DNA of 64,000 bases, taken from positions 2,485,001-2,549,000 of the forward strand of contig NC_134679.1 in the NCBI RefSeq assembly GCF_024713945.1. The letters are read 5' to 3'. The position numbers were made by a program, and so were the translations under genes. How positions within the stretch are numbered: the stretch's first letter is position 1; the number at the start of each line of letters is the position of its first letter. Below, piece by piece: positions 30,751 to 35,897 of the stretch. Under the pieces are notes generated by a model. That model was not told the DNA's origin, made no database searches, and was given only the letters and a program-made list of their open reading frames with translations. The DNA comes from Dermatophagoides farinae. Taxonomy: Eukaryota > Arthropoda > Arachnida > Sarcoptiformes > Pyroglyphidae.

Positions 30751-32041
30751 ATGAAACCAGAAAAAGCTAGGTTAGTTTGTTAGTGAATTCATTCCGATAT
30801 TCGGTTGTTAATAAATACTTGTTGTCAATACAGATCCCACCTAAAGAAAATTATGGAATCACCAAAATCACCGTCAAGAAAATGCTTCGAAGGTAATATC
30901 TATATTCGAACACCTTTGGTAGAATCGATTGAACTTCGGAAATATTGTGCTGGTCGACAGGTTTATCTTAAAATGGAAAATTGTCAACCATCGGGCAGTT
31001 TTAAATTAAGAGGAATTTCTAATCTTTGTAAATATGTGAGTGATTGTCAATTTAATCTGTGTTTTTGAATTTTAAATGAAACGAATCAAAACCAGGCAGT
31101 ATCGAACGGATTTACGGAGGTGGTATGTCCATCCGATGGAGATGCAGGTTTAGCTACAGCGTTTTCCGCAATGAAAATGGAAATTCCCTGTCATATTATT
31201 GTGGGACAGAAAACACCAATGGTTGTTTGTGATGCCATGAGATCTTATGGTGCTACATTGGAACGTTATGGTGATACGTGGGAAGAGGCAAACAAACATG
31301 CTATCGAAACCATAACCAATACAAAGACTGCATTTCTGGTCCATCCATTTGATCATTTAGCTGTTTGGTAATGCTCAATGAACATTAGGCTTATTTATTG
31401 GAATTAATTGAATTCATTCATTCGATCATAGGCAAGGACATTCAACTATTATCGATGAGATTGTTGAAGATCTTGATGGACAAGTTCCATCGATAATCGT
31501 AACCAGTTGCGGTGGTGGTGGACTAATCTGTGGTCTTGTTCAAGGCATCCGACGACATGGTTGGGAAAAACGCACAAAAATATTGGCCATTGAAACCGAA
31601 GGAACGCATTCATTTAATCTATGCGTAAAAGCTGGTGGTAAACGTGTTCGATTGAATGAAATTAGTTCAATCGTCCATACATTAGGTGCTTATGAAGTTT
31701 GTGAACAAGTTGTGCAATATTTTCGTGAATGTAATCCACCGATTTTATCGCGTCTGGTGAACGATGCCGAAGCAGCAGAAGCTTGTATTCGTTTTGCAAA
31801 TGATCACAGATGTTTGGTAGGTTTAGGTTCGGCAACTACAATGGCTTCTGTTTATACCGGTATCGTTGAACGGATATTGACAAAAAATGAAGATCTACAT
31901 GAAACACTTTATGATCAACGTGATGAACAAGAAATGAATGAAACTGAAGGTCCGATCGTCATTCTGGTATGTGGTGGTGGTGAAGTAAATCTGAATATTA
32001 TTGAAGAAAATCGAAAATTATTTAATTTACATAAAATTTAA
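30751..32041 (+). CDS. L-serine dehydratase / L-threonine deaminase-like protein, copy 1 (altered PLP loop)
   Basis: Exons 30751-30770, 30834-31035, 31096-31367 and 31432-32041 give 367 residues. The 20-nt first exon (MKPEKAR) is inferred because its GTTAGT donor and the later acceptor join in phase; otherwise translation starts at 30853. Family knowledge: fold-type II PLP enzymes that deaminate serine to pyruvate or threonine to 2-oxobutyrate in the cytosol. Seen: the PLP lysine in NCQPSGSFKLRG, the phosphate loop SCGGGGLICG, THSFN and the C-terminal VCGGGEVNLN. The cofactor-contacting Ser-Gly-Asn-Ala loop, intact in copy 2 as PSGGNAGLA, reads PSDGDAGLA here (about 31129-31150). The Asn that binds the PLP ring is thus Asp. 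The open frame is intact, so it is either a changed enzyme or an inactive but expressed homologue. Confidence 0.9.
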
Positions 32042-32305: not shown

Positions 32306-33266
32306 ATGAATTCACCGAAATTGTCATCAAGACAAAATTTCAATGGAAATATCTATGTTCGAACACCATTGATTGAATCCGTTCCACTTCGAAAATATTG
32401 TGCTTATCGAAAAGTTTATCTGAAAATGGAAAACTGTCAACCATCAGGCAGTTTTAAATTAAGAGGAATTTCAAATCTTTGTAAATATGTGAGTAATTAT
32501 GTAAATTTAAATAGTTTTTGTTTGAAATTTAAAAAATCTCAAAAATATAGGCTTTATCGGCTGGATACACAGAGGTAGTTTGTCCATCCGGAGGAAATGC
32601 AGGTTTAGCCACGGCATATGCAGCTATGAAGCTAAAAATACCATGTCATATAATTGTTGGACAGAAAACACCCAGTATAATTTGTGATGCAGTTCGAGAA
32701 TATGGAGCTACTGTCGAACGTTATGGTATAGTCTGGGAACAGGCAAATCAGCATGCAATTGAAACGACAATCGATTCAAAAACAGCGTTTTTGGTACATC
32801 CATTTGATCATCAAGCTATATGGTATTAATTATTAATTAAAATTAATTTTCTAAAAAGTACTCACATAGTTTTTTTTTGCAAAGGCAAGGGCATTCGACA
32901 ATTGTTGATGAAATTGCACAAGATCTTGATGGTGAAATACCATCTATCATTGTAACGTGCTGTGGCGGCGGTGGACTGTTATGTGGTATCGTTCAAGGTA
33001 TTCGGCGACATGGTTGGGAAAAACGTACAAAAATATTAGCCATCGTTCAAGGTATTCGGCGACATGGTTGGGAAAAACGTACAAAAATATTAGCCATGGA
33101 AACGAAAGGAACACATTCATTCAATATTTGTGTAAAAAATGGTGGATGTGGCGGATGTGAAATCTCTCTGAATCATTTGAAAGAATATCGTGATTTATTT
33201 GGTTTAACCCATTTCGACCCATATCCCCATTTGGGGATCGGAAATAGTCCTAGAAACCGGGCCTGA
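32306..33266 (+). pseudogene. Serine/threonine dehydratase-like copy 2, rearranged and truncated
   Basis: Exons 32306-32488, 32551-32822 and 32885-33266 share intron positions with copy 1 and read 278 residues. The N-terminal half is intact, with lysine motif QPSGSFKLRG, asparagine loop PSGGNAGLATA and glycine loop CCGGGGLLCG. Three changes follow: an in-frame 54-bp tandem duplication (18 residues, IVQGIRRHGWEKRTKILA twice); then an internal deletion that joins NICVKNGG directly to the last segment CGGCEISLNHLKEYRDLFGL; then a foreign tail of about 20 residues (THFDPYPHLGIGNSPRNRA) contributed by the transposon starting at 33208. The regulatory and C-terminal parts of the catalytic domain are missing, so normal activity is unlikely. 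Transcription cannot be judged. No upstream coding exon like that of copy 1 was found. Confidence 0.8.
32988..33095 (+). repeat. 54-bp in-frame tandem duplication
   Basis: The unit starting ATCGTTCAAGGTATTCGG at 32988 is repeated without visible change from 33042. It adds 18 residues just after the glycine-rich PLP phosphate loop of dehydratase copy 2. Confidence 0.95.
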
Positions 33267-33407
33267 TTTTTTTTGGAAAACTATCATTTAATTCTACTTT
33301 CACTAGTCAGGAAATCAAAAGTTACTCGTACTTTGTGTTCAATGAATCAACTCTTCTTTTTTCTTCACAGTACTGATATTCAAAAACACTAGTCAGTTCT
33401 TTGCGCT

Positions 33408-33810
33408 GCAAATGAAGTTTGTGAAAAAGTGGTGGAATATTTTCGTGACAATCAACCACAAATTTTATCACGTTTGATTACCGATGTTCAAGCAGCCGAA
33501 ACTTGTGTTCATTTCGCAAATGATCATCGATTTCTGATCGGTTTAGCTTGTGCCACTTCGATTGCTGCAAAATAATGACCACAATTTTCATGTTTCTTGT
33601 GCCACTTCGATTGCTGCTGTTTATACAGGGATCGTTGAACGAATCATCACCAAGAATGAAGACCTTCACGAAAGCTTATATGATAAAAGAGATGAACAGG
33701 AGATGACTGATAATGAGGGACCTATTGTTGTGATTGTATGTGGCGGATGTGAAATCTCTCTTAATCATTTGAAAGAATATCGTGATTTATTTGGTTTAAA
33801 TGATATTTGA
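33408..33810 (+). pseudogene. Captured 3' fragment of a serine/threonine dehydratase gene
   Basis: Translates from ANEVCEKVVEYFRDNQ through SRLITDVQAAETCVHFANDH to VIVCGGCEISLNHLKEYR and the stop after GLNDI. This is the C-terminal third of the dehydratase family and covers most of what is missing from copy 2. The frame is broken by an insertion made of a 22-bp repeat (CTTGTGCCACTTCGATTGCT at 33547 and again at 33596) around a short filler. The fragment lacks any start or promoter of its own and lies between the two arms of the TTAA element. Confidence 0.8.
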
Positions 33811-33914
33811 GAATAAAATGAATTTGAATTTTCCATCGCATTAAAATCGGGGCAAAAAATGGTATTTTCCTTTTAACGAACGCTATTGACGTTGCCTAGT
33901 AAATATGTTGCATT

Positions 33915-33994
33915 GTCGCATTTTGAATAGGTCATCTGGCTGCAGACACTCAAAAGTCGATTGAAAACGAAAACATTTCCATCAATTCATGATT
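33915..33994. repeat. 80-bp direct repeat, copy A (inside the TTAA element)
   Basis: Begins GTCGCATTTTGAATAGGTCA and ends ATCAATTCATGATT. It appears identical over 80 bp to 34192-34271, which lies immediately upstream of NDUFS2. Confidence 0.92.
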
Positions 33995-34191
33995 GCATAT
34001 TCGACCTAAAATTGCGAATTTCTCCCAGAATAATGTTTAAATTTTTTTAAATAGGTGATTTTTCTCTTATTTGAATGCAAATTAATATAATTAAATAAAA
34101 AAAATTGAAAAAAAAAATTTGGGACGAAATGGGTTAAATGATATTTGAGAATAAAATGAATTTGAATTTTCCACTATTTTCACCCAATCGA

Positions 34192-34271
34192 GTCGCATTT
34201 TGAATAGGTCATCTGGCTGCAGACACTCAAAAGTCGATTGAAAACGAAAACATTTCCATCAATTCATGATT
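34192..34271. repeat. 80-bp direct repeat, copy B (NDUFS2 upstream region)
   Basis: Second copy of the 80-bp repeat. It ends 40 bp before the NDUFS2 ATG, so it probably covers that gene's promoter or leader. The copy inside the TTAA element therefore carries part of the NDUFS2 5' region. Confidence 0.92.
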
Positions 34272-34311: not shown

Positions 34312-35897
34312 ATGATCAATCTATCACGTTTCGCAAAATATCTGGACCGATTATCGATGGTCAACAATGGTGCCAAAAATCTGGCACCAACATTATCGGC
34401 TATGAATAACTTGTCTGTTGAGCAACGGCGTTTTGCTAAAAAATGGTATCCAGACAAACAATACTTTCAAGAATTTGAAGACGAATGCTTTTTAGTTCAA
34501 CAAGAATATCCTGGAAAAATTTCAAGAAATGTCACTAGACTAAATCCTCAAATGAGATTTCGAAACGTTGTAATCAATTTTGGTCCACAACATCCAGCTG
34601 CACACGGTGTGTTAAGATTGGCTCTTGAACTTCGTGGTGAATATGTAATTCGTGCTGATCCTCATATCGGTCTTCTTCACAGAGGAACCGAAAAACTAAT
34701 GGAATATAAAACATATACGCAAGCTTTGCCATATATGGATCGGCTTGATTATGTATCAATGATGACTAACGAACAATGTTATGCTTTGGCAATCGAAAAA
34801 ATGTTGAATATTAGAGCACCAAAACGAGCACAATATATTCGAGGTAAATTGATATTTGCTGCAAATTTAAAATCAAATAATAAATCAACATTTTTTTCCA
34901 GTTTTATTTGGTGAAATAACTAGGATTTTAAATCATCTAATGGCCATCGGTACTCATGCTCTTGATGTTGGTGCATTGACACCATTCTTTTGGCTTTTCG
35001 AAGAACGAGAAAAAGTTTGTATTTTTGTATTTTATTTTTCAACTAAATTAAAGCAAACATTCAATAGTTGATGGAATTTTATGAACGAGTAAGTGGTGCC
35101 AGAATGCATGCTGCATATGTACGTCCTGGAGGGGTATCCCAAGATTTACCAATCGGCCTTATGGATGATATATACACATGGGCATTAAATTTTGTCCAAC
35201 GTGTTGATGAAATAGAAGATTTGCTTACCGAAAGCCCTATCTGGAAGGATCGTACTGTTGATATTGGTATCGTTTCGGCTGAAGATGCTCTAAATTTTGG
35301 TTTCAGTGGTGTCATGTTACGAGGTAGTGGAATCAAATGGGATCTACGTAAAACTCAACCATATGATTCGTATGAAGAATTCGATTTTGATGTGCCCATC
35401 GGTATCAATGGTGATTGTTATGACAGGTAATTTGTTGAAAATTTATGGTTGTTGAATTTTTAATCAATGTTTTTAATCAATCTGTCATTAGATACCTGTG
35501 CCGCATGCACGAAATGCGTCAATCAATCCGTATAATCAACCAAGCATTGAATAATATGCCACCAGGTGAAATCAAAATTGATGATAACAAAATTGTGCCA
35601 CCAAGTCGTGCAGAAATGAAAAATTCAATGGAAGCTCTTATCCATCATTTCAAATTGTTCACCGAAGGTTATCAAGTTCCAGCTGGTTCAACCTATACTG
35701 CAATCGAAGCTCCGAAAGGTGAATTCGGATTGTATATCGTTAGCGATGGCACATCGCGGCCATATCGATGCAAAATTAAAGCACCTGGATTTGCTCATCT
35801 TGCCGCTCTTGATCATATCGGTAAAAACCTTTTCCTTGCCGATATTGTCGCCATCATAGGTACACTGGACATTGTGTTTGGTGAAGTTGATAGATAG
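34312..35897 (+). CDS. NDUFS2: NADH dehydrogenase (ubiquinone) iron-sulfur protein 2, complex I 49-kDa subunit
   Basis: Exons 34312-34843, 34902-35014, 35068-35426 and 35492-35897 give 469 residues, the usual size for the mitochondrial precursor. Family knowledge: a core matrix-arm subunit of respiratory complex I that helps form the ubiquinone pocket with NDUFS7. Seen: a basic, Ser-rich N-terminus fitting a mitochondrial presequence ([20 protein letters not shown]), then [95 protein letters not shown] and the C-terminal DIVFGEVDR. The quinone-site His of [10 protein letters not shown] is present. The start is the ATG at 34312; an in-frame extension upstream is unlikely to be coding. Its upstream region carries copy B of the 80-bp repeat. 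Confidence 0.97.

Follow-up and report, generated by a model that had tools for sequence, protein, structure and literature searches.

A MITE with piggyBac-like ends enclosing a piece of the gene it interrupts in the Dermatophagoides farinae assembly, possibly through template switching between alleles

Ends that start with CCC are a hallmark of piggyBac-type transposons. The target of piggyBac is TTAA (PMC7351741), and aberrant piggyBac events have been reported in cultured cells (PMC3952818). Host gene sequences within transposons have been described for the Pack-TYPE elements of plants (PMC8903248) and for Turmoil-1 of C. elegans (PMC2572040), and transposon gene capture has been reviewed alongside a piggyBac-like element fused with a fish herpesvirus (PMC6431247). 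Template-switch models describe clustered duplications with deletions and short insertions (PMC2621351). A survey (PMC10813416) leaves out piggyBac MITEs and, in its excerpted text, makes no mention of Dermatophagoides, Sarcoptes, Arachnida or Acari. No description of gene capture by piggyBac elements in mites was found among the titles and abstracts listed by literature searches.

The window analysed here is a 64-kb stretch of D. farinae DNA (C3:2485001-2549000 of assembly GCA_024713945.1), and the genome searched was that same assembly, comprising 62,435,336 bases in 22 contigs. The window harbours two tandem PF00291 genes, the L-serine ammonia-lyase-like A1 and A2, upstream of the gene for the 49-kDa subunit of NADH dehydrogenase. 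The joined exons of A1 encode a product identical to the D. farinae protein P0001 over 354 amino acids. The reference for A2 was protein P0003 (HUG17_7042), which originates from another D. farinae gene set and represents an intact A2 without the scars present in the window. The features of the locus are as follows.

30853-32041, plus strand: gene A1, an intact L-serine ammonia-lyase-like paralogue with three exons (PF00291)
32306-33142, plus strand: 5' part of gene A2, outer copy, up to VKNGG (match to P0003)
32988-33041 and 33042-33095, plus strand: exact in-frame 54-nt tandem duplication in A2, one unit of which is absent from P0003
33143-33207, plus strand: outer A2 gene end, joined directly to VKNGG (61/62 identical to 33738-33799)
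33204-33207, no strand: left target-site copy, TTAA
33208-33386, plus strand: MITE left arm, the CCCATTTCGACCCA end followed by ATCCCCATTTGGGGAT; single-copy by BLAST and homologous by alignment to the left arm of L004, a relative elsewhere in the genome
33387-33994, plus strand: core, A2 sequence starting at about residue 221 and running through the stop into the downstream flank (residues 227-344 exact to P0003, in two blocks)
33547-33617, plus strand: exact 22-nt duplication around a 27-nt filler (a 49-nt insertion), absent from P0003
33836-33914, plus strand: length variant, 79 nt in the core flank, with 18 different nt in the corresponding place beyond the element (34174-34191)
33995-34133, plus strand: MITE right arm, its end read inwards as CCCATTTCGTCCCAAAT and a T run; single-copy by BLAST
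34134-34137, no strand: right target-site copy, TTAA
34138-34271, plus strand: outer copy of the A2 downstream flank
34312-35897, plus strand: NADH dehydrogenase 49-kDa subunit gene (PF00346 at 35080-35427; start and end read from the sequence)

The element occupies 33208-34133 of the window (926 bp) and is bounded on each side by TTAA, whilst the empty (uninterrupted) target with its single TTAA (33796-33799) lies inside the element, in the core, as is expected of a piggyBac-type insertion with TTAA duplication. The inner ends, CCCATTTCGACCCA and CCCATTTCGTCCCA, form a short CCC-starting inverted repeat with 13 of 14 positions matching, and a piggyBac-like element elsewhere in the genome (L008, discussed below) has similar ends, CCCATT. 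Amongst the 473 TTAA sites of the window, the element ends were the sole pair lying 80-3000 bp apart with a match of at least 12/14. Taken alone these ends are not very rare, in that one of 20 random windows generated with a first-order Markov control contained a pair matching at 13/14 or better, and the 14-nt end pattern without TTAA (up to two mismatches) occurred twice in the window and at least twice in 8 of 100 shuffles. When TTAA was included and the search was extended to the whole genome (62.4 Mb), the pattern was retrieved at four places, namely the two ends of the element as exact matches and two others with two mismatches, with one occurrence in the control. A chance resemblance of the ends was rejected as unlikely, given that an empty site is present and that the end pattern is rare across the genome. 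Without its gene core the MITE looks like a sequence of approximately 318 bp (33208-33386 joined to 33995-34133).

Residues 1-48, 59-204 and 227-344 of P0003 match the window exactly. Residues 49-51 mismatch and residues 52-58 match in another frame, both where that gene model has an intron boundary, and in the region of residues 205-226 the outer copy keeps CVKNGG and the core keeps part of SLVSSL with one extra base, such that about nine residues (approximately 212-220) are absent from the window. Past residue 204, the outer copy displays a single change relative to P0003, L205I. We read A2 as a gene that is broken in two in the present assembly, because the outer copy lacks the gene middle and its frame continues into the left arm as far as a stop at 33264, and because the core, which lies in A2's own orientation, has no start, changes frame at the additional base near 33403 and is interrupted by a stop codon in frame at 33573. 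The first exons of A2 also have a more distant third match, on C7, and no protein with the rearranged A2 ending was present among the 120 of 442 matches listed.

The core is identical to the outer flank at 40/40 positions (34134-34173) and at 80/80 positions (34192-34271), and overall the core and the outer copy differ at one of 182 aligned bases and by the one length variant, the 79-nt stretch of which is single-copy in the genome. The A2 middle is present only once, in the core. Among the best candidates in the genome the core matched, besides itself, only the paralogue A1, at 65%. A host-gene piece encoding A2 residues 227-344 is located between transposon ends, as in transduplication, and no second copy of the composite was retrieved at another site among the genome's best candidates. 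The 10-nt word CACTAGTCAG occurs both in the left arm (33301-33310) and at the left edge of the core (33387-33396). Two copies exist of the sequence preceding the NADH dehydrogenase 49-kDa gene (33915-33994 and 34192-34271, 80/80 identical), and this doubling might affect the promoter of that gene.

The first-pass annotation of this DNA had recognised TTAA at both edges, the inverted ends and a non-autonomous piggyBac-like element inserted in a dehydratase-type gene at TTAA; all three are supported. It was also right that an empty target lies within the element, but the position given, 33792, is displaced, as the 18-mer quoted starts at 33793. The proposal that the element holds the 3' end of the gene and its flank is correct as far as it goes, but the core also holds the gene middle, and the match to P0003 moves the start of the gene-derived part from 33408 to approximately 33387.

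BLAST searches of the genome returned no further copies of either arm. A diverged, coreless relative, L004 (C2:1979880-1980139), was located via the end pattern; it measures 252 bp between two TTAA sites and its ends are 12/14 alike. The left arm aligned to that of L004 with a local score of 50, against a highest score of 32 in 200 shuffles, and the joined arms scored 154 against the L004 arms, compared with at most 88.5 when the left interior was shuffled and with a median of 145.5 and a maximum of 164 when the right interior was shuffled. Judged by these scores, the left arm is homologous to the L004 left arm, and the right-arm interior has no significant likeness to L004 under the shuffled-interior control, though the end of the right arm resembles the right ends of L004 and of a family designated here as the CCCATTAATGCCCA family. 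With L004 as the query, BLAST matched L004 alone and did not recover the element; relatives this distant are therefore missed by BLAST.

Pattern searches retrieved one further candidate. The inner left-arm pattern occurred at 97 places in the genome, compared with 31 for the reversed control, and of the 30 loci among these that were examined in a strand-aware manner, one stood beside a TTAA (L031, which is the L004 place) and one other, L036 (C8:2538754-2538779), shared the left end of the element. The latter consists of CCCATGATCCCCAATTGGGGATCGGA behind a decayed TGAACCCG end, with TGAA standing where TTAA is expected, and its likeness to the left end of the element extends over approximately 40 bp, past which the score (73) does not exceed the shuffled median (74). 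L036 yielded no right end, and a genome scan for the word CCCATGATCCCCAATTGGGGATCGGA returned only that place and the window; L036 is perhaps a decayed left end. The wider end pattern was found at 92 places, compared with 46 for the control. Among the 30 of these with a locus, 26 were new (L061-L086), and of the latter only L061, the other end of L004, showed the arms, whilst the remaining 62 places were compared by end sequence only, except for one pair (L087). Right-arm scores of 52 (L016/L020) and of 38-47 (several other loci) came from A/T-rich sequence, had no dedicated control and were not counted as homology. A high-copy family was rejected on the BLAST results for the arms and for L004 and on the wider end-pattern search. 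Copies with like ends and no core had been predicted beforehand, and one diverged relative answers to this, but the arms are otherwise single-copy by BLAST; a lack of other arm copies, named in advance as evidence against the proposal, is thus nearly what was observed, but L004 exists.

Similar ends were encountered in families associated with transposases. The element at positions 255-3156 of L008 (C5:3035871-3038772) is piggyBac-like; its 556-codon PF13843 frame is intact, and it has 14/14 matching ends CCCATTCACGACCA and TTAA. L007 on C2 is 99.9% identical to it over 2.5 kb, with no right end found for L007. A family with TTAACCCATTAATGCCCA ends, the aforementioned CCCATTAATGCCCA family, accounted for 17 of the 92 places of the wider end pattern. 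One TTAACCCATTAATGCCCA end is situated 552 bp past PF13843 fragments on C1, and a pair of such ends in L087 (positions 113-1457; C3:5171712-5173056) delimits 1,345 bp from TTAA to TTAA in which no long reading frame is open, the longest stop-to-stop stretch being 88 codons. Four right ends of this family (L069, L074, L084 and L087) read CCCAA(A) followed by a T run, an arrangement common to the right end of the element and this family and, roughly, also to L004. No transposase element with exactly the element's ends was found in the genome. In view of the end patterns shared with PF13843-linked families, we describe the element as non-autonomous, a MITE with piggyBac-like ends for which the transposase partner is a candidate only.

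Besides the core and its outer counterpart, the locus harbours the two additional duplications listed above. No source was found in the genome for the 27-nt filler, the best other place being on C7 with two mismatches in 22, nor was one found there for the 79-nt stretch. Five of the six short-range exact repeats in the window fall within these 1.3 kb, three of them reflecting the core and the outer copy and two the extra duplications. Short-range exact repeats are not rare in the genome, having been found at 13 of 76 loci (235,154 bases, several of the loci overlapping and all chosen by transposon patterns), and their count is therefore a weak yardstick. Several joints with both duplication and deletion are concentrated in a small region, which is the arrangement expected of template switching.

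The explanation we favour, with a probability of roughly one half (0.5), is that the MITE inserted in one allele of A2 and that a local rearrangement with several switches then took place with the empty allele. The empty version retained in the core shows insertion at the TTAA spanning the Leu-Asn codons, three codons before the A2 stop; the inserted non-autonomous element would have measured approximately 318 bp and hit only one allele. During later replication or break repair, the occupied allele may have switched template repeatedly with the empty allele, skipping the gene middle before copying the gene end and the left arm, then jumping to the empty allele, where the middle, the end and the downstream flank would have been copied, prior to a return to the right arm. 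The outcome would be a piece of the allelic gene nested in the element, with small duplications nearby; the gene piece would have been brought there by switching and the element would not have been its carrier.

Switching between alleles is favoured because it accounts for how the pieces are ordered, for a gene middle present only once, for a core almost identical to the outer copy and for the small duplications nearby. An allelic origin of the core is further supported in that one difference in 182 bases, albeit a small sample, is close to the 0.52% heterozygosity given for the assembly (PMC11074847). The empty target within the core and the retained gene orientation also support it, as do the existence of a coreless relative, the intact A2 protein of another D. 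farinae gene set and the contrast between one changed residue and at least four structural changes relative to P0003. That neither the 27-nt filler nor the 79-nt stretch could be traced to a source weakens this explanation, and the position of CACTAGTCAG, which differs from the place that a simple switch predicts, counts against it. A local duplication placing the fragment between two arms had been the second option of the first-pass annotation, and this option is supported. If the nested structure is real, the uptake of a gene piece is separate from its transport, and short elements may acquire host sequence by exchange with the other allele. We regard it as doubtful that such switching represents an initial stage in which a DNA transposon captures a gene, preceding transport; were this so, a transposase supplied in trans could now mobilise the composite, and short animal elements could begin to capture genes without transposing.

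Nearly as likely as switching between alleles is an assembly chimaera, in which an intact empty allele and an allele with the coreless MITE and a deleted gene middle, both present in the pooled DNA, were written one inside the other by merging or polishing. Approximately 3,000 mites were pooled for the assembly, and Quickmerge was used to combine three assemblies (FALCON, WTDBG2 and Flye), with polishing by NextPolish and Pilon. The difference between outer copy and core is at the allelic level, the intact form of A2 is known from another gene set whilst a second copy of the intact allele is absent from the genome's best candidates, and the outer part and the core together encode nearly the whole intact protein a single time, apart from about nine residues (212-220), as would be expected of two united alleles. 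However, the joints at 33142/33143, 33386/33387 and 33994/33995 have, as far as can be read from them, no long overlap of the type that an assembler requires, an alignment of the alleles would be expected to pair the shared 182 bases instead of writing them twice, and the 54-nt and 49-nt duplications survived polishing with short reads. If the structure is a chimaera, it warns that merging assemblies from pooled mites can combine two haplotypes into a false structure that breaks a gene and resembles capture.

It is improbable that the locus decayed slowly, with the MITE killing A2 first and separate later duplications and deletions building the present form. Such a course is consistent with the disablement of both the outer and the core copies of A2, but outside the scars only L205I has changed, against at least four structural changes. 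True capture, in which the element acquired the gene piece at another place or an earlier time before the composite transposed into the present TTAA, was rejected as very improbable. Although the piece sits between two complete ends and two TTAA sites, this course requires the composite to have reached its own gene again, precisely at the site it carries and in the same orientation, and no second core was retrieved among the genome's best candidates (only A1, at 65%); the capture of the gene end by a mobile element, the first of the two options initially proposed for this locus, is likewise at odds with a core that lies beside its source, in its own orientation, with the target site inside and with allele-like similarity.

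Compared with known systems, the locus resembles piggyBac-like elements and their MITEs in having TTAA on both sides, an empty site with a single TTAA, CCC ends and no transposase inside, in a genome that encodes PF13843 transposases, that of L008 among them. It differs from such MITEs in that a gene piece fills most of the element, and in that the search yielded a single diverged relative lacking the core and a single decayed left end instead of a many-copy family. With MMBIR and fork-stalling template switching it shares discontinuous duplications, deletions and short insertions in a small region; here, however, hundreds of bases are involved and the partner would be the other allele. With Pack-TYPE elements and transduplication it shares a host gene piece between transposon ends, yet whereas their pieces have been carried to new places, the piece described here resides in its own gene, at the site of insertion.
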